Virus record (IMG/VR): IMGVR_UViG_3300028883_000076 | Span: 1-43,163 of that record | Length of the DNA: 43,163 nucleotides | From: a virus | Direction: 5' to 3' (one strand) | Position numbers and translations under genes: made by a program | Notes under the pieces: generated by a model | Databases searched by the model: none | What the model was told of the DNA's origin: nothing | Seen by the model: only the letters and a program-made list of their open reading frames with translations | Part shown: positions 8,974-43,163 of the stretch, in pieces | How the letters are laid out: the number at the start of each line of letters is the position of its first letter | Position numbering within the stretch: the first letter of the stretch is position 1

Positions 8974-10438
8974 ATTGTACCATCTCCGTCACGCAATCAT
9001 GATCGCTGTGCCAAATGCCGATCTGCCCCAGGTTCCACCAGTTAAACAGCCCGATCCCTGCATCACTGAGCGCTGCCGCTGTGGTTTGATATGCGTTGGC
9101 CTTCTCTGCACATGAGTAGCTAGCATCCCAGTTGCCGGAGTAGCCATCCGTGACGCCGATCTCCGTGACGGCAGTCAGGCCCGGCCAGGAGCGCAAATCG
9201 TAAACCCCGTGCTGGTCGAGATAGTCTGCAACCAGGTCATAGCGTCCCGCCCCCGTAACGTATGGATCATTGACCCAGGGACTATCGGAGCGGCTCCAGG
9301 TTGCGTGTGCTGCACCGTGCCACGCAATGCCGTGATAGCTGCCGTCCGGGAGTGGATTAGCGGCGACCCACTCCAGATAAGGCACGAGGTCCAGCCAGGC
9401 GTAAAAATCCGGGTTGCCCGGTCCAAATGAGAACGCCAGCATCGGCACACCATACCGCGCTTCGACCAGTTGCGCCATGCTGATTGACCATTCAGCGAGC
9501 ACGTCATAGCCGTATGTCGGCCCCCATTCGTTCATGACCTCAATGGCATCGCACAACCCCTCGCCCGGCTGTGGCAAATGCGGCCATAGTTTGGCCGCGT
9601 ACACTTCCGGTGTGAACCACTCGTCGCCCAATGGCCCATCGCGCAGCGTGCCGCCAACGGTCAGGCTGCGGCAGATGACCAGCACGTCAGGGTTGGCGGC
9701 CTTCACGCGACGGCAAACATCCCATGAGCCGTCCAGACATTTGACCGTGCCGACCTGCTGCGCATACGGTTCGACTGCGCTCCCCCCCAGGCCCATAAGG
9801 ATATGAAACCCCGCGCGCGTTGTCGTTTGTGGCGGGGTGTTCTCGGTCGGAATGTTTGTGCAGTCGGCTGCACTGTCGATCTCAACGTACCATCCAGCGA
9901 CATACCCCGGCACGTTTGGCTCATACCATATCCGATACCATACGTTGCCGTCACTGTCGTATTTACGTGCCTCAAGGGCCAGTACGTTACCCTGGCCCAC
10001 CTGCCCGATCCACGCGCCCCACACGTCATCCCGCACATTGAGCGCCCCTGCCGTGACGGTTCCCCAGCATTTGGGCAGCAACGTGGGCGTGATGCTGGGC
10101 GTCGGCGTGACCGACGGCGTGACCGGCGTCGGTGTTGGCGGCACGCCTGTCTCCTGCGTTGGCGATGGGCTGGCGCTTGGTCGGGGCGTGTTGGTTGGCG
10201 GCGGTGTTATCGTTGGCGATGCCGTCGCGCTGGGGCTGGCTGTCGGCGTTGGTGTTGGCGATGCATTCGGCGGCGCTGTAGCCACTGCCACTCGAATGCA
10301 GACATCATCCGCCCGGCAGTATTCGCCCGGCGGAATGTCGATGATCGTTTTGTCATTCTGCGCACCCACGCCCCATGCCACAAACAGCGCGGCGGTGATC
10401 ACGATGCCGAGCGCAAACGTAACGACTGAGCGCCTCAT
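8972..10438 (-). CDS. Endolysin-like secreted glycoside hydrolase with SH3 domain (488 aa)
   Basis: Last gene of the leftward transcript. Residues 1-27 are a signal peptide or anchor (ALGIVITAALFVAWGV). A Pro/Thr/Ser linker spans about 57-120. A bacterial SH3-like domain follows (about 123-190: GALNVRDDVWGAWIG ... GYVAGWYVEI), likely a cell-wall binder. The C-terminal 280 residues look like a clan GH-A TIM barrel: MNEWG supplies the expected Asn-Glu acid/base and VTEIG the nucleophile Glu. It probably cleaves host wall glycan. The linker style resembles Chloroflexota secreted proteins. ATGA overlap with the holin-like gene supports a lysis role. Confidence 0.75.
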   Translation of the reverse strand: MRRSVVTFALGIVITAALFVAWGVGAQNDKTIIDIPPGEYCRADDVCIRVAVATAPPNASPTPTPTASPSATASPTITPPPTNTPRPSASPSPTQETGVPPTPTPVTPSVTPTPSITPTLLPKCWGTVTAGALNVRDDVWGAWIGQVGQGNVLALEARKYDSDGNVWYRIWYEPNVPGYVAGWYVEIDSAADCTNIPTENTPPQTTTRAGFHILMGLGGSAVEPYAQQVGTVKCLDGSWDVCRRVKAANPDVLVICRSLTVGGTLRDGPLGDEWFTPEVYAAKLWPHLPQPGEGLCDAIEVMNEWGPTYGYDVLAEWSISMAQLVEARYGVPMLAFSFGPGNPDFYAWLDLVPYLEWVAANPLPDGSYHGIAWHGAAHATWSRSDSPWVNDPYVTGAGRYDLVADYLDQHGVYDLRSWPGLTAVTEIGVTDGYSGNWDASYSCAEKANAYQTTAAALSDAGIGLFNWWNLGQIGIWHSDHDCVTEMVQ

Positions 10439-10815
10439 CCTGCATTCACGGCCCCACCGGGATCGCCCTGCTCCGGCTCATCAGGAATACCCAGCGCATT
10501 GTCGATACCGTCTGCCAGCGCGCGCAGGAATACCGGCATGAAGGCCGCCGCGTGTTTGTTCCAGTCAGCCGCCAGCACTTTATCCAGCAGGCCATCCAGC
10601 TTCACTAGCGCGGGATCGTCGAGTTCGTCTACCAGTTCGATCATAGCTTCGAGCTTGCCGCGCCCTACCAGCCAGATGTCTCGGATTTTCTTCACGCCAA
10701 AATGCGCGGTGGCTAGCGTTACCGCTGCTGTCACGGCAATGAGTAGCGCCCCCGCTGCGATGGTCGCCAGCGCTTCGATAACGTCTGGTTGTGCAAAGAG
10801 ATCGTTGTAGTTCAT
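10435..10815 (-). CDS. Holin-like membrane protein (126 aa)
   Basis: One strong membrane segment near the N-terminus (about residues 13-38: ALATIAAGALLIAVTAAVT), followed by a soluble acidic helical domain, is the layout of LL-H-type holins. It sits directly upstream of the lysin with an ATGA overlap and directly after a coiled-coil membrane protein. It would open the inner membrane for the lysin. No sequence motif is diagnostic, so position carries much of the call. Confidence 0.6.
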   Translation of the reverse strand: MNYNDLFAQPDVIEALATIAAGALLIAVTAAVTLATAHFGVKKIRDIWLVGRGKLEAMIELVDELDDPALVKLDGLLDKVLAADWNKHAAAFMPVFLRALADGIDNALGIPDEPEQGDPGGAVNAG

Positions 10816-10818
10816 TAT

Positions 10819-11370
10819 TTATGTCCCTACCTTTTTCGCTTCTTTGTCGGTCGATTGTTCAGCGCCGGATTGCGCGCCATCACGACGATCTGCAAGGTCT
10901 AGCCCCAGCAGCGTCAACGCGCGCTCATACGTTGCCTTTTCGGTCGTGAGTACAGCCGTGCGCTGCTGCGCCTCAATGAGCGCATTCTCTAGCCGTCGAT
11001 TTTCGTGCGTCAGTTCCTCGATACGTGCGCTTTTGGCCTCAATATCCGCCTGCGCCTTACCTTTCCACGTCTGCAAATCCTGAAGCGACCGGCACAACAC
11101 ATCGATTTCATTGCGCAATTTTACTAGTTCGACATCGGCCTTCTGTCGTTCGTCTTGCAACGTAGCGACCAGCGTGCGTGTATTCGCGTGCGCGTCCTGC
11201 TCACTGCGCAGGTCACGCCGCAATTCAGCGATCAACTGGTCAGTTCGCCGCTGCTCACGCTCTATAGCATTGTCGCGCTGTTTTGCGCTGAGACGCAGCG
11301 TTAGTGCCACCGTGCCGACTAATCCCGCCACAGCGCCCACCAACGCCAACGCTACCTGTAGGATTTCCAT
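10819..11370 (-). CDS. Membrane-anchored coiled-coil protein, spanin-like (183 aa)
   Basis: An N-terminal membrane helix (about residues 4-27: VALALVGAVAGLVGTVALTL) is followed by a long charged coiled coil (about 30-155) and a Lys/Asp-rich tail. Inner-membrane spanins (Rz type) have this plan: N-terminal anchor plus periplasmic coiled coil. It lies in the lysis cassette next to the holin-like gene. No separate outer-membrane lipoprotein is seen, and a Chloroflexota host may lack a classical outer membrane, so a holin partner or lysis regulator is an alternative. Confidence 0.5.
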   Translation of the reverse strand: MEILQVALALVGAVAGLVGTVALTLRLSAKQRDNAIEREQRRTDQLIAELRRDLRSEQDAHANTRTLVATLQDERQKADVELVKLRNEIDVLCRSLQDLQTWKGKAQADIEAKSARIEELTHENRRLENALIEAQQRTAVLTTEKATYERALTLLGLDLADRRDGAQSGAEQSTDKEAKKVGT

Positions 11371-11458
11371 TCATTTCCCCCACTCCGGGGCCGTTTCGTG
11401 TTATAATACATCTGCCCGTGCTGCGCGCTGGCCCTCTGCTATCGCGCGGTGCGGGTGT

Positions 11459-11767
11459 TTACAATGGGACTTGTGGCAATGGTGGCGCGTCATTGTCGCG
11501 CGGCTTGATCTTCCATCGTGCATCAAGCCAACAGTTTAGCACTCGTGTCACAATTCCGTCTTGCCCTTGTTGGTAAATCTGCAAATCAGGTGCCCAGGGT
11601 TCATAGGGGGCATCCCAGCACGTATACCCCTCGGCCCAGTCGTCTTCCCAACGCTGTGCCGTGAATGGCGGCACGGGATCATCTCCGTCTTGTGCGCCCG
11701 CCTGGAATGGCACAAACAACAACGCGCACACTATAAATCCCAGCAAAAACGTCGCTACCTTATTCAT
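11459..11767 (-). CDS. Small secreted protein in lysis cassette (102 aa)
   Basis: Start at 11767 behind AGGAGGAAGCACC. Residues 1-25 are a classical signal peptide (FLLGFIVCALLFVPFQ, then AGAQ as a cleavage site). The mature part is acidic, Trp- and Pro-rich and has two cysteines that could form a disulfide. It opens the lysis cassette behind its own candidate promoter. Function unknown; it might assist the lysin or act outside the membrane. Confidence 0.65.
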   Translation of the reverse strand: MNKVATFLLGFIVCALLFVPFQAGAQDGDDPVPPFTAQRWEDDWAEGYTCWDAPYEPWAPDLQIYQQGQDGIVTRVLNCWLDARWKIKPRDNDAPPLPQVPL

Positions 11768-11797
11768 GGTGCTTCCTCCTATTCTGTCTATATTTAT

Positions 11798-11803
11798 ATT
11801 ATA
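11798..11803 (-). promoter_or_regulatory. Candidate lysis-cassette promoter (-10 only)
   Basis: A perfect TATAAT on the minus strand lies in an AT-rich gap just upstream of the secreted-protein gene. The -35 region at 17 bp reads GTAGTT, a poor match. It could need an activator, or it may only be AT-rich leader. The location between tail and lysis genes is where a late promoter would be useful. Confidence 0.35.
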
Positions 11804-11842
11804 CAATATGACAGTTGCGAAACTACATCAGCTTTTAGGAGA

Positions 11843-12382
11843 TTAATCGCTTGATTGTTTGAAGCTGATTTTTGTCAGCACAATATAATAATCCGTGCTG
11901 CTGGCGTTTTTTCCGTTCACGGTGCCCCGCAAAACGTAGGTGCCCGGATTGGTAACTGATATTGAGGTTACGGTTTCAACGTCATTATATGTTGCCGGTG
12001 CCGCATCATACCAATCCTGCCCGGTTTCGATGCTTACCCCGCCCAATGTCCAATCAATTATCCCGCGCGAGTTTCCCTTGCTTCCCAGGATTGTCATAGT
12101 GTAAGTGCCGGCTGCCAGTGTGACGGATTGCGTGAATGTATCGCCGTCTGCTGCTGTGTTCTGATATGCACGGGAATTGTAGTATTGATCGGCTGTTACA
12201 ACAACCGTTATCGCATTCCCCGCCGTAACGATGCTATCCTCATGCCACAGCGTCGCGCGCTTTGGGAAATTATCAGCGAGATACTGTACATTACCATCCG
12301 CGCCAATATAATCGTTTAGCTCGGTATGAGTGACAATATCGTTATTGATCCATGTTTTTGTAGTCGTCCATGTGCTTGTCAT
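11843..12382 (-). CDS. Tail-tip accessory protein, paralogue of the upstream C-terminal module (179 aa)
   Basis: The product is beta-rich and Thr/Ser/Asp-rich, typical of phage adhesins. Residues about 30-100 (KRATLWHEDSIVTAGNAIT, then AYQNTAADGDTFTQ and the Gly-rich strands) match the C-terminus of the tail protein encoded just upstream (KRAMLWHDESTVTAGNAIT, SYQNAAALNDEFTN). A stem region (TWINNDIVTHTELNDYIG) precedes the module in both. This looks like a duplicated receptor-binding or carbohydrate-binding sandwich, one copy fused and one free. Confidence 0.7.
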   Translation of the reverse strand: MTSTWTTTKTWINNDIVTHTELNDYIGADGNVQYLADNFPKRATLWHEDSIVTAGNAITVVVTADQYYNSRAYQNTAADGDTFTQSVTLAAGTYTMTILGSKGNSRGIIDWTLGGVSIETGQDWYDAAPATYNDVETVTSISVTNPGTYVLRGTVNGKNASSTDYYIVLTKISFKQSSD

Positions 12383-20862: not shown

Positions 20863-21209
20863 CAGTCACTCATCCTTACAATAACCGCCTGGTTGTCAGT
20901 CGCCTGCGTTCGCTGCGTAATGAGGTCTACCACATCATACGTGTCTCCACTCGACAGAATTACGCGATAATCGACCTCTAGCGTCTGGTCATGCGGCACG
21001 ATCAGCCGGTACGAGTCCACAATCGTTTCACGCGATCCGACTGGCTGCGCCTGCTCCATAAAACGGTTACCGATGGTGATCACGCGGCATTTCACGCCCG
21101 TCGCCACATTGCTGAATATTTCCAGGCGTTCGCCCGCCTCGCCAACAGCCTCATTCCGTTCCTGTATCGTGCAGGTATCGGTCATGAGCGCCTCAGCGGC
21201 CTTGCGCAT
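20862..21209 (-). CDS. Head closure / stopper-like protein (115 aa)
   Basis: The frame is open to 21296, but that would overlap the previous gene deeply. The ATG at 21209 gives MRKAAEALMTDTCTIQERN, the usual beginning of head-closure proteins (xMxDTCTIQ). A beta barrel follows: VKCRVITIG, SYRLIVPHDQTLEVDYRVILSSGDTY split by turns. It would plug the connector after packaging. ATG 21185 is an alternative start. Confidence 0.75.
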   Translation of the reverse strand: MRKAAEALMTDTCTIQERNEAVGEAGERLEIFSNVATGVKCRVITIGNRFMEQAQPVGSRETIVDSYRLIVPHDQTLEVDYRVILSSGDTYDVVDLITQRTQATDNQAVIVRMSD

Positions 21210-40666: not shown

Positions 40667-42130
40667 CTAGTATCCCGGTCCGACCCAGGCTTTACCCTCG
40701 GCGGCGGCTTGATTGAACTTACGCCACAACGCCTCGTCACGGAACGTTAAATGTACCGTGCCTTTTTTGTGGACGCGGATCGTGAAGAACTCACTCTCGA
40801 ATGTCTCATTCCATTCAGCGTCGGTTTTGCCATGAATGTGATCTGTTATGGCGTCGTCAATCGTGCGCGCTGGCTGTTCTTCTGACGGCTTGCCCGACTC
40901 ATATTTACGGCGTAGATCGTCAAAGTTCCGGCCAGTGAGGAAACAGCACGCTTTGTCGAGATCGGCGTAAAAGTCGCGTTTATAGTATGCAAATGACCAG
41001 CTATCCCAGCGGCTTTCATAACGCACGCCGTAAGGAACGATGATCTTCCGATTGATGCGCCATGATTTATTGGTTTTCCAGCCTTCTGTATGCACCTTGT
41101 TTTTCTCGTGCAAGCCGGTGATCGCATCGAATGCTTCCACGATACACTGCCGCATGATCGGCTGGTAGTTTTGCACGACGGCTTCGAAAAGCGTCATGAT
41201 ATTGTCAACTGTGAACGCCATGTGTGCGTTCTGTTGCCGCGCTAGCTCAAACTCTTCACGTACCTGGCTAGTGGTGACACTGCCTAACTTCGTCTTGTCA
41301 AAAATGTATCCCCAAAAGTGTGCTTTTGCCTGGGTGATCTGTTCATTCAGAGTAGGGCGCTTCTCGCGGCCATACGTGGGATAAATCGTATCAGTGTAAA
41401 AGTCGAGTCTCTGGTTAATCTCGTGTCGTTCTTTGATCAGCCGGATTACAGCGTCATACTGATCTACCAGCGCCTTGATTTTGTTTCGCGGCGCAACCTG
41501 TGACGGCTCAAATGTGCCATCGGTGGCTGGCGCTTCAGTATCGAAGCTAATCCCATCGAATGCCCCGGTTTGATCGACTTCCGGCTTGAACAATACGACC
41601 ATCGCCACATCAACATCAGTGTGCCGCGCAGAAGACCGGAACGCTTTACCCAGGCGCGTTACCCGGCCATGCTGAGCCGCTAACCGATTAAATAGTTTGC
41701 GTTCCTCAGTGTGCGGATTGTCGATGTTCGAGCCATTAAGCAGGGATACAACCGCGCCGCCTGGAGCTACAATATCCCATGCGCGCATAATGTGCTTGGT
41801 TGCATTGCTAAACGGCGGATTCATGATAATGAGATCGAAGCGATATGGTTCATCGAAGTTGAGGAAGTCGTCACCTATCACACGATACCCCTTGCCGGAC
41901 AATACGAGGCGCAATTCTGCATTACTCTCGATGGCATAGCAGTTGTCTTTGCTGACGTGATAGGTAGATGATAGGCGATCTAAAATGTCGCCTTTGCCTG
42001 CTGATGGCTCTAGGATCGTCGTCTTTCCCAATCGGCTAGCAATTGGTGCGACCATGCGCGTGATAACGCTGGGCGGCGTGGGGAAAAATTCACTTACGTC
42101 TGCTTGCGGTTGTGCTGCTGCTGTGCTCAT
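40667..42130 (-). CDS. DNA adenine methyltransferase with DUF4942-like C-terminus (487 aa)
   Basis: Start at 42130 (MSTAAAQPQ) behind GGGAGGAACC; the frame to 42250 runs into the RNA locus. Motif I EPSAGKGDI (41-49) binds S-adenosylmethionine and motif IV NPPF (104-107) is the N6-adenine catalytic motif. A long second half (about 200-487) ends with FTIRVHKKGTVHLTFRDEALWRKFN, which resembles DUF4942, commonly fused to such methylases. No restriction partner is present; it may protect phage DNA or mark replication. Confidence 0.85.
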   Translation of the reverse strand: MSTAAAQPQADVSEFFPTPPSVITRMVAPIASRLGKTTILEPSAGKGDILDRLSSTYHVSKDNCYAIESNAELRLVLSGKGYRVIGDDFLNFDEPYRFDLIIMNPPFSNATKHIMRAWDIVAPGGAVVSLLNGSNIDNPHTEERKLFNRLAAQHGRVTRLGKAFRSSARHTDVDVAMVVLFKPEVDQTGAFDGISFDTEAPATDGTFEPSQVAPRNKIKALVDQYDAVIRLIKERHEINQRLDFYTDTIYPTYGREKRPTLNEQITQAKAHFWGYIFDKTKLGSVTTSQVREEFELARQQNAHMAFTVDNIMTLFEAVVQNYQPIMRQCIVEAFDAITGLHEKNKVHTEGWKTNKSWRINRKIIVPYGVRYESRWDSWSFAYYKRDFYADLDKACCFLTGRNFDDLRRKYESGKPSEEQPARTIDDAITDHIHGKTDAEWNETFESEFFTIRVHKKGTVHLTFRDEALWRKFNQAAAEGKAWVGPGY

Positions 42131-42152: not shown

Positions 42153-42301
42153 TGGCGCGGGCCGGATTTGCACCAGCTGTCTGTGGCTTTTAGTTGGCGT
42201 TTCAACCTCGTGCACTTAAGGTGCCACAACGGGACCATCAGGCCGGTCACTCCGGCAACCCCAACGAACCCTATAGCGTGTTCCTACCACGCCACCGCAC
42301 C
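42153..42301 (-). ncRNA. tRNA-like RNA with large insertion (149 nt)
   Basis: The 3' part has a good T-arm: GCTGG-TGCAAAT-CCGGC, then acceptor strand CCGCGCC and an A. A matching 5' strand GGTGCGG lies at 42301-42295 (one U:G pair), followed by TG and a 4-bp D-arm GCGT...ACGC with GG in the loop. Between D- and T-arm are about 100 nt instead of about 25, with stems GCCGG/CCGGC and TGTGGC/GCCACA. No normal anticodon arm is evident. It is either a decayed tRNA or a tRNA-like module of a larger RNA. It ends 23 nt before the methylase start. Confidence 0.4.
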
Positions 42302-42449
42302 GTGTGCCGGGGTAAGCCGCTTTTCGCAGACGGGGTACGAGGCCCCTTGTCCCCCGGCGTTCTCAGAGGCAGATTACGCGCTGCCAATACCGCGTTCGAC
42401 GGCTCAAACCGTCCACGCCAGCGGTACAATGCGCCGCTAGTCGTCGCAA

Positions 42450-42602
42450 AAGGGCAGGTTGGACTCGAACCAACTCACGGGCCACATCAGACGTTGGCTT
42501 CCCCACTGGCTAGCACTTGGGTTTCTGCCATCCACGCTACCTGCTTGCGGCGTATTCCGCCCCCGGACCATACCGGGTGCTACACCCTGTAGCCTCTGCC
42601 CT
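42450..42602 (-). ncRNA. tRNA-like RNA (T-arm clear, 5' part ambiguous)
   Basis: The T-arm is canonical: GTTGG-TTCGAGT-CCAAC, then CTGCCCT. Two 5' partners exist. AGGGCAG at 42602-42596 pairs perfectly and is followed by a D-arm GCTA-CAGGGTG-TAGC, giving 152-153 nt. ATGGCAG at about 42532 pairs with one mismatch and gives about 82 nt with a loop GTCTGAT (CUG, Gln-like) on a stem with a bulged A. Neither is a normal tRNA. It lies directly after the tmRNA-like gene. Confidence 0.4.
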
Positions 42603-42604
42603 AG

Positions 42605-42720
42605 TGGAGGTGTGCGGACTCGAACCGCAGTCCGAAAGCCTGTTGCGCCGGGTTTCGCGCTGTCTCTGTGCGCCTTCACGCTAGCGCCCGGCCAGACCCC
42701 CGTCGATACCTGTCACCCCC
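42605..42720 (-). ncRNA. ssrA-like: Compact tmRNA-like RNA (116 nt)
   Basis: The 5' end GGGGGTGACAGGTATCGACG and 3' end with TTTCGGAC, T-arm TGCGG-TTCGAGT-CCGCA and CACCTCCA match the tRNA-like domain of tmRNA. The 7-bp acceptor has G3:U70 and A73, the alanine identity. There is no D-stem, as in tmRNA. P2 follows: nt 20-28 pair with 79-87 (wobble-rich, 9 bp), extended by 29-34 with 69-74. The 34-nt apex has a GCGC/GCGC hairpin and codons GCG CTA GCG TGA (nt 34-45, Ala-Leu-Ala-stop). Normal tmRNA is 230-400 nt with pseudoknots; none fit here. CCA is not encoded. Confidence 0.75.
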
Positions 42721-42886
42721 GATTTGCTGCGAACGGTATGGTATTGCGCCCCTCGCCGCGCTGGTCTGGGCGGGGGGCTTGCTTCACGTCGCGCTGCAAC
42801 GGCGTGCTATCGCGCGGATGCGACACCAGCAACAGCAGCAACGCCAACAGCAGTAGATCGCGCGCATCCAGTTCCAGCCGGATCAT
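42713..42886 (-). CDS. Membrane microprotein downstream of RHH gene (57 aa)
   Basis: Starts in an ATGA overlap with the RHH stop and ends with a TGA inside the first bases of the tmRNA-like RNA (8-nt overlap). Residues about 10-23 (LLLLALLLLLVSH) form a short Leu-rich membrane helix after an acidic N-terminus; the tail is basic and Pro/Arg-rich (QAPRPDQRGEGRNT). Translational coupling supports a real gene. Function unknown; a membrane partner of the RHH regulator is possible. Confidence 0.5.
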   Translation of the reverse strand: MIRLELDARDLLLLALLLLLVSHPRDSTPLQRDVKQAPRPDQRGEGRNTIPFAANRG

Positions 42887-43077
42887 TTTACGCTAGCCTG
42901 CTGATCGTCCTGCTCACGAACTCCGCCAAGCTGAACAGTATCCGGTACGCCGAGATAAGTCTCAAGCGCCTCCCGGATAATATTCGAGTACGGTCTTTTC
43001 TCGCGTTCGGCTTGGCGCTTCAGGGCTGCTAGTTGATTTTTTGGCAGTACCATGCTGATACGGGTTGTTTTTGCCAT
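42883..43077 (-). CDS. Ribbon-helix-helix regulator (64 aa)
   Basis: First gene of the leftward transcript, with AGGAGACGAC before the ATG. Residues 1-45 are a complete RHH (CopG/MetJ-like) domain: strand TTRISMVLP, helix KNQLAALKRQAEREK, turn RPYS and helix NIIREALETYL. A short tail carries VQLGGVREQ, also present in the 246-residue RHH protein of this phage. It likely dimerises and binds palindromes, with the site at 123-139 as first candidate. It is not adjacent to a toxin gene. Confidence 0.88.
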   Translation of the reverse strand: MAKTTRISMVLPKNQLAALKRQAEREKRPYSNIIREALETYLGVPDTVQLGGVREQDDQQASVK

Positions 43078-43163
43078 GTCGTCTCCTCTCTACTATTTAT
43101 AGTATATATCCTGCACGAATTTATGTCAAGTGCTTTACTGGCTAGTACCCCCCAAATTTTAGG
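43027..43163. repeat. Terminal direct repeat, right copy
   Basis: Second copy of bases 1-137 (one mismatch, C43153 for T127). The leftward promoter appears here with -35 at 43124-43129 and -10 at 43101-43106. Merging both copies gives a circle of about 43,026 bp. Confidence 0.9.

Follow-up and report, generated by a model that had tools for sequence, protein, structure and literature searches.

What RNAs lie between the repressor and methyltransferase genes of a phage, and what might they do? We analysed a 43,163-base phage contig from an IMG/VR virus record, referred to here as the window, in which the initial annotation had considered either a new large phage RNA or a cluster of tRNA-like decoys on the minus strand.

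A gene for a small Arc/CopG-like repressor (42883–43077; PHROGs, best E value of 4e-5) is located upstream of the RNAs and a DNA methyltransferase gene (40667–42130, with its ATG at 42130; PHROGs phrog_32703, E value of 5e-71, and several DNA-methyltransferase families) immediately downstream, with both genes and the intervening RNA cluster being on the minus strand. The order on this strand is a tmRNA-like gene (42720–42602), a tRNA-like unit designated u2, a spacer, and a second unit designated u3, and the RNA elements end 23 nt before the methyltransferase start. A near-consensus sigma-70-type promoter, TTGACA-17-TATACT (43101–43129, minus strand), was assigned by consensus match only (11 of 12 positions), and this candidate could be the source of a transcript containing the repressor, the RNA cluster, and the methyltransferase. 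Open reading frames overlapping the RNA region had no match in PHROGs.

ARAGORN detected no tRNA or tmRNA, also when introns were allowed at default thresholds, and the single Rfam family found at the gathering score was tmRNA (RF00023). A relaxed Rfam search (E value of up to 5) added a weak overlap with permuted tmRNA and a match to mir-44, the latter probably arising by chance. Direct blastn of the region against phage records returned only T-arm fragments of tRNAs, and no such RNA was apparent in the flanks of the methyltransferase relatives (best identity of 37%). The many stems of 4–7 bp that had been noted are not unusual, given that the fold of the whole 474 nt was no better than that of shuffled sequence (z = –0.39); the conserved signal therefore resides in the tRNA-like shells of the units and not in the number of stems.

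Two tRNA-like units and a mini tmRNA

The tRNA-like parts recognized in the initial annotation were confirmed. The minus strand carries two T-arms, GTTGG-TTCGAGT-CCAAC (42474–42458) in u2 and GCTGG-TGCAAAT-CCGGC (42177–42161) in u3, together with matching acceptor strands at a distance of about 150 nt and one D-arm-like hairpin 2 nt past each 5′ acceptor strand. In u2 (42451–42602, minus strand), which spans 152 nt and starts three bases past the tmRNA discriminator A at 42605, the acceptor AGGGCAG (from 42602)/CTGCCCT is paired at seven of seven positions without a G-U pair. This acceptor strand is followed by AG, a hairpin at the D position (GCTAC-AGGGT-GTAGC), an A, a further hairpin (CCCGG-TATGGT-CCGGG), an extra arm of ~87 nt, and the T-arm. 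In u3 (42154–42301, minus strand), which spans 148 nt with a discriminator A at 42153, the acceptor GGTGCGG (from 42301)/CCGCGCC is likewise fully paired (7/7), with one G-U pair, and a TG linker leads to the D-arm GCGTG-GTAGGAA-CACGC (42276–42292). An insert of 98 nt (42178–42275), whose predicted arms include TGTGGC/GCCACA, replaces the anticodon arm and variable loop of u3. Both units thus combine a 7-bp acceptor stem, a D-arm-like hairpin, and a T-arm with a 7-nt loop with 80–100 nt of other RNA in the place of the anticodon arm, and each, when folded alone, formed the closed acceptor, the D-hairpin, and the T-arm.

Decoding tRNAs have a total length of ~70–95 nt. Their acceptor stem, D-arm, T-arm, and elbow are present in the window units, but an anticodon arm with a 7-nt loop is not, u2 having a 6-nt loop and u3 none. 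Intron-containing or degenerate tRNAs were rejected as identities for the units, since ARAGORN with introns and systematic insert splicing gave none, nor can the stems be accounted for by ordinary tRNAs. The repeated units that had been suggested from spacings of about 150, 148, and 150 nt are reduced to two. The 149 nt between u2 and u3 (42302–42450, minus strand) contain a 7-bp stem, GCCGGGG (42358–42352)/CCCCGGC (42312–42306), but no acceptor/T-arm pair and no tRNA-like unit, and are therefore a spacer of similar length. Nor is ~150 nt a property of the family to which u3 belongs, given that relatives span 64 to >300 nt, and the proposal of a repeat with this fixed length is unsupported.

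Dinucleotide shuffles of the region (n = 4000) gave no such units, and 12 Markov versions of the whole window gave two in total. Application of the same unit tests to ~1.4 million bases of other loci returned mini tmRNAs, one tRNA-like gene in locus L015, and a pair of overlapping, A+T-rich matches in L036, which we attribute to chance. The L015 gene (3879–4050, minus strand; ~166 nt) carries an insert of ~95 nt inside the anticodon loop, with a closing stem of CTCAC/GTGAG, and this insert is shorter than group I introns usually are.

Full-length tmRNA is ~350 nt, and its G3-U70 pair is the identity pair for AlaRS. The tmRNA-like gene next to u2 (42602–42720, minus strand) is only 119 nt long, yet it matches RF00023 with 66.7 bits (E value of 5.6e-24) and retains G3-U70, A73, the tmRNA D-loop GGTATCGAC, and the T-arm. 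In place of the tag and pseudoknots, ~65 nt separate one half of the tRNA-like domain from the other, and neither a tag frame nor pseudoknots were found. It scored 7.7 and 11.2 bits with the models of the anticodon-less family described in the next section and is outside that family. Tag-less mini tmRNAs of 102–126 nt that keep G3-U70 were present in six other, unrelated phage contigs (L014, 1146–1256; L122, 466–568; L123, 13474–13575; L124, 5986–6096; L127, 3424–3546; and L130, 10684–10809). Most of the seven encode CCA, and the motif AAGGCGCACAG is common to the window and L130 copies. Among the 117 pattern matches in bacterial genomes that were listed and examined, there was no mini tmRNA gene; the seven of these listed matches that come with anything acceptor-like appear to be 3′ segments of full-length tmRNAs or chance matches. 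A mini tmRNA might be charged with alanine and then enter stalled ribosomes without offering a message on which to resume.

Two further observations concern tmRNA-like loci. Upstream of the mini tmRNA in L123, six type II hammerhead ribozymes are distributed across 2.5 kb (9828–12349, plus strand). In L249 (S-SSM7, 21023–21057) and L251 (S-CAM1), a tmRNA 3′ part is directly followed by a tmRNA-like 5′ end; these are apparently permuted tmRNA genes, the former being annotated as a hypothetical protein in S-SSM7 and the latter unannotated in S-CAM1.

A family of anticodon-less tRNA-like RNAs in phages

The family was reached through terminase relatives of the window phage. These relatives hold few T-arms, two of which, in records G018 and G014, are located in intergenic gaps. 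The D-arm in G018 was found to be near-identical to that of u3 (TGGCGTGGTAGGAACACGCT versus AGGCGTGGATGGAACACGCT). The G014 record contains an enlarged tRNA-like RNA of 124 nt with a bulged A in the acceptor (L112, 17391–17514, minus strand) that was missed by ARAGORN.

A scan of viral contigs for GGCGTGGNNGGAACACGC identified 111 contigs, with ~5 estimated by chance, and most matches showed a common design, in which a 7-nt acceptor and a C precede the motif, and a stretch of other sequence then leads to a T-arm and the complementary acceptor. We applied a strict unit test (acceptor 7/7, T-stem 5/5, and T-loop), with acceptors swapped among matches as the control. For this first D-loop class, 43 of 89 distinct matches passed, compared with 0.59 on average and at most 2 for swapped acceptors. 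Some contigs contained second units with another D-loop, and a scan for this second class (GGCGTGGACNGTGACACGC) identified 109 contigs, with 73 of 96 distinct matches passing (swapped acceptors: mean of 1.9, maximum of 7). Insert length in the family ranges from 14 to ~270 nt.

In an alignment of 38 units (A2), 98.4% of cells were paired, compared with 77.5% in shuffles, and all seven acceptor pairs and four of the five T-stem pairs showed changes on both sides (11 of 17 pairs overall). Alignment A3 gave the same picture, with shuffles across alignments being 75–78% paired as against 98%. Given that acceptor and T-arm had served to extract the aligned units, the comparison with swapped acceptors is the fairer control. 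The D-stem was invariant in motif matches because it belonged to the search motif, and D-arm sequence conservation is thus partly built in, but compensated D-stems occur in diverged copies found with the models (GTGTG/CACAC in L298 and CAGTG/CACTG in L288).

In tRNA, G18 contacts pseudouridine 55. Across both D-loop classes, counted with a T-loop test blind to base 55 and in rows that are not phylogenetically independent, the D-loop base at position 18 and the T-loop base at position 55 were G-U in 62 units and A-G in 53, with three exceptions and, in addition, one T/T (Fisher p value of 6e-30). This covariation is independent of any stem and is the best evidence for a tRNA-like elbow in the family units, whose tRNA-like structure we consider near certain. 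The A-G combination in place of G-pseudouridine would represent a second solution for the universal 18–55 elbow contact. The covariation that had been proposed as a check on aligned relatives was found for the acceptor, the T-stem, and positions 18 and 55.

The window unit u3 is a confident member of this family. It has the 7-bp acceptor closed by the strand after the T-arm, the 2-nt linker, a 5-bp D-stem, and a loop of the form GNNGGAA or GACNGTGA. With covariance models that both include the D-arm motif used as search key, it scored 56.2 bits (R1, window left out of training; E value of 2e-10) and 56.1 bits (R2). Its equivalent of base 18 is A (42285) and that of base 55 is G (42171), one of the two family combinations, and the A at the former position accounts for its odd T-loop, TGCAAAT. 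The u3 insert has no relative among the other family inserts. Unit u2 scored 25.3 bits with R1 and 26.8 bits with R2, with exact boundaries, and T4 tRNAs scored up to 25.6 bits with R2; u2 is therefore tRNA-like by anatomy, with model scores at about the level of ordinary tRNAs.

The alternative of a cluster of tRNA-like RNAs holds on the architecture of u2 and u3, and the family of u3 is one that neither Rfam nor ARAGORN recognized. At gathering scores, Rfam did not recognize the family in u3 or in 13 family loci, and neither Rfam nor the open-access literature that we searched, which excludes subscription papers, contained a description of an anticodon-less tRNA-like family. Matches in named phage isolates were partial and tRNA-like only. 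These RNAs apparently constitute a large and so far undescribed family of phage tRNA mimics. Given that tRNA finders and Rfam are blind to such genes, a widespread class of phage RNA has probably gone into annotations as unoccupied sequence or as spurious genes.

Context, inserts, and possible roles

At least nine contigs (L296, L297, L303, L311, L316, L329, L336, L350, and L389) have family units at a distance of 2–6 nt from canonical tRNA genes, a proximity that makes common processing likely. Six of these (L303, L311, L316, L329, L336, and L389) are related contigs in which one unit lies a few bases from multi-tRNA arrays (Ile, Gly, Gln, and Arg). In 301 Chloroflexota genomes the motif occurred four times and included two true units (71 and 69 bits), one beside phage-type replication genes and the other beside ParA and FtsK-like genes of a mobile element. 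There was no motif match in 297 Actinomycetota genomes and a single match (21.7 bits) in 299 Pseudomonadota genomes. Chloroflexota are therefore probable hosts of some family members.

Across the family there are more than 40 acceptor sequences, discriminators are mixed, and CCA is rarely encoded. Such variation alongside a conserved shell argues against a single aminoacylation identity and points instead to recognition by enzymes that read the elbow and the stacked acceptor/T-arm, among them RNase P and RNase Z. No anticodon arm is apparent in most inserts, and most are unique (55 singletons), but one structured insert recurs with three distinct, compensated acceptors (L285, L314, and L374), and further groups share inserts (L297/L298 and L303/L311/L316/L329/L336/L389). 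Conservation of the non-tRNA parts in related phages, a point on which the initial annotation was to be judged, is thus absent for most inserts and present for several insert subfamilies. Recurrence of one insert behind different compensated acceptors favours a carrier shell with an active insert. Unique inserts are to be expected both of fast-evolving functional inserts and of functionless ones.

We give an even chance to the reading that u3 is a phage RNA with a tRNA body that carries an unrelated insert as effector, with u2 being built alike. The units would be transcribed together with their neighbours, cut out by host enzymes (5′ end, RNase P; 3′ end, RNase Z or exonucleases), and persist as stable tRNA-like particles. 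The shell would then provide for processing, for stability, and for contact with tRNA-binding partners. The specific function would come from the insert, which would probably bind or occupy a host factor acting on tRNAs or ribosomes. The observations on which this scaffold model is based are the architecture, the compensatory changes, the elbow covariation, the tandem arrays beside real tRNAs, and the re-use of inserts. As a wider proposal, which we put forward tentatively, uncultured phages, some apparently on Chloroflexota, might possess a natural tRNA scaffold, with a shell following a G18-U55 or A18-G55 code and inserts acting as effectors on host targets; other versions of it would be the mini tmRNAs that lack a tag and, perhaps, T4 RNA C.

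The RNA elements of the window all occupy the strand of the two genes that flank them and approach the methyltransferase start to within 23 nt, an arrangement that is also consistent with tRNA punctuation. The units would in this case be cleavage marks for host tRNA-processing enzymes in polycistronic transcripts, so that messages, here those of the repressor and methyltransferase, are stabilised or separated, and the insert would be filler. Highly variable insert length (14 to ~270 nt) and the general lack of insert conservation, with 55 singletons, are in keeping with such filler, which leaves unexplained the insert subfamilies common to phages with different acceptors; arrays that string together several units and real tRNAs also speak against punctuation, and we regard this explanation as rather doubtful. 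Retention of the elbow and loss of the anticodon would suit decoys for tRNA-targeting defences, which anticodon nucleases could not cut and which would occupy tRNA-binding proteins, with the mini tmRNA likewise occupying the ribosome-rescue machinery. Phage tRNAs are able to counter tRNA-cleaving defences (PMC10264068, PMC11555353), and for the tRNA-like domain of YrlA, competitive inhibition of a nuclease has been proposed (PMC7790460). A simple decoy has no need of conserved inserts, however, and most anticodon nucleases read the anticodon itself; we regard decoys as unlikely.

We consider it very improbable that the units are degenerate or intron-containing ordinary tRNAs, even though family units occur within tRNA arrays and the 166-nt tRNA-like gene of L015 has its insert inside the anticodon loop. 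Decay would be expected to abolish the 7/7 acceptor, T-stem pairing, and 18–55 covariation, all of which are kept in more than 100 units; removal of the insert leaves no convincing anticodon arm in u3; and ARAGORN with introns allowed at default thresholds finds no such gene. The family as a whole provides a strong structural model and a set of interchangeable inserts with targets to be sought.

Comparison with known RNAs

GOLLD and ROOL are phage RNAs of unknown function that are often found near tRNA islands (PMC12286853). They are very large, complex single RNAs, and neither was matched here in Rfam at the gathering score or at E values of up to 5. The proposed new large phage RNA of this type was set aside on this basis, together with the fold of the 474 nt (z = –0.39) and the conserved parts being separate, tRNA-sized shells. 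A 26-nt segment, GGTGCAAATCCGGCCCGCGCCACTGT (42174–42149, minus strand), resembles the P6/J6-3 core of the cobalamin riboswitch (RF00174), whose hairpin also has a T-loop. The riboswitch, also in permuted order, was rejected: the GGGAA element and B12 box are absent, the profile match covers 33 positions with an E value of 0.036, and there is no Rfam match. Two T-loop hairpins probably look alike here by coincidence.

Like the units, the bacterial Y RNA YrlA is non-coding and has a tRNA-like domain (PMC7790460), but no Y RNA family was matched at Rfam gathering scores in the window or in 13 family loci. With tmRNA (RF00023), u2 and u3 share the acceptor, T-arm, reduced D-arm, and an insert in the place of the anticodon arm, whereas they lack G3-U70, the tmRNA D-loop sequence, and an RF00023 match, and no tag frame was identified in them.

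T4 RNA C (species 1 RNA, rnaC) is a stable phage RNA whose function is still unknown (PMC9697503). Its gene (NC_000866, 70908–71046; 139 nt) is located in a tRNA cluster, and the RNA has the T-arm CCGGG-TTCGAAT-CCCGG, near-paired ends, and a non-tRNA middle. Its ends are paired at only five of seven positions (two U-U), however, and it is without the family D-arm; it resembles the family in its ends only, and its scores of 24.5 (R1) and 26.8 bits (R2) are no better than those of T4 tRNA-Ser and tRNA-Leu. The anticodon-less family offers a comparative handle on the role of phage RNAs that, like T4 RNA C, are stable but are not tRNAs.
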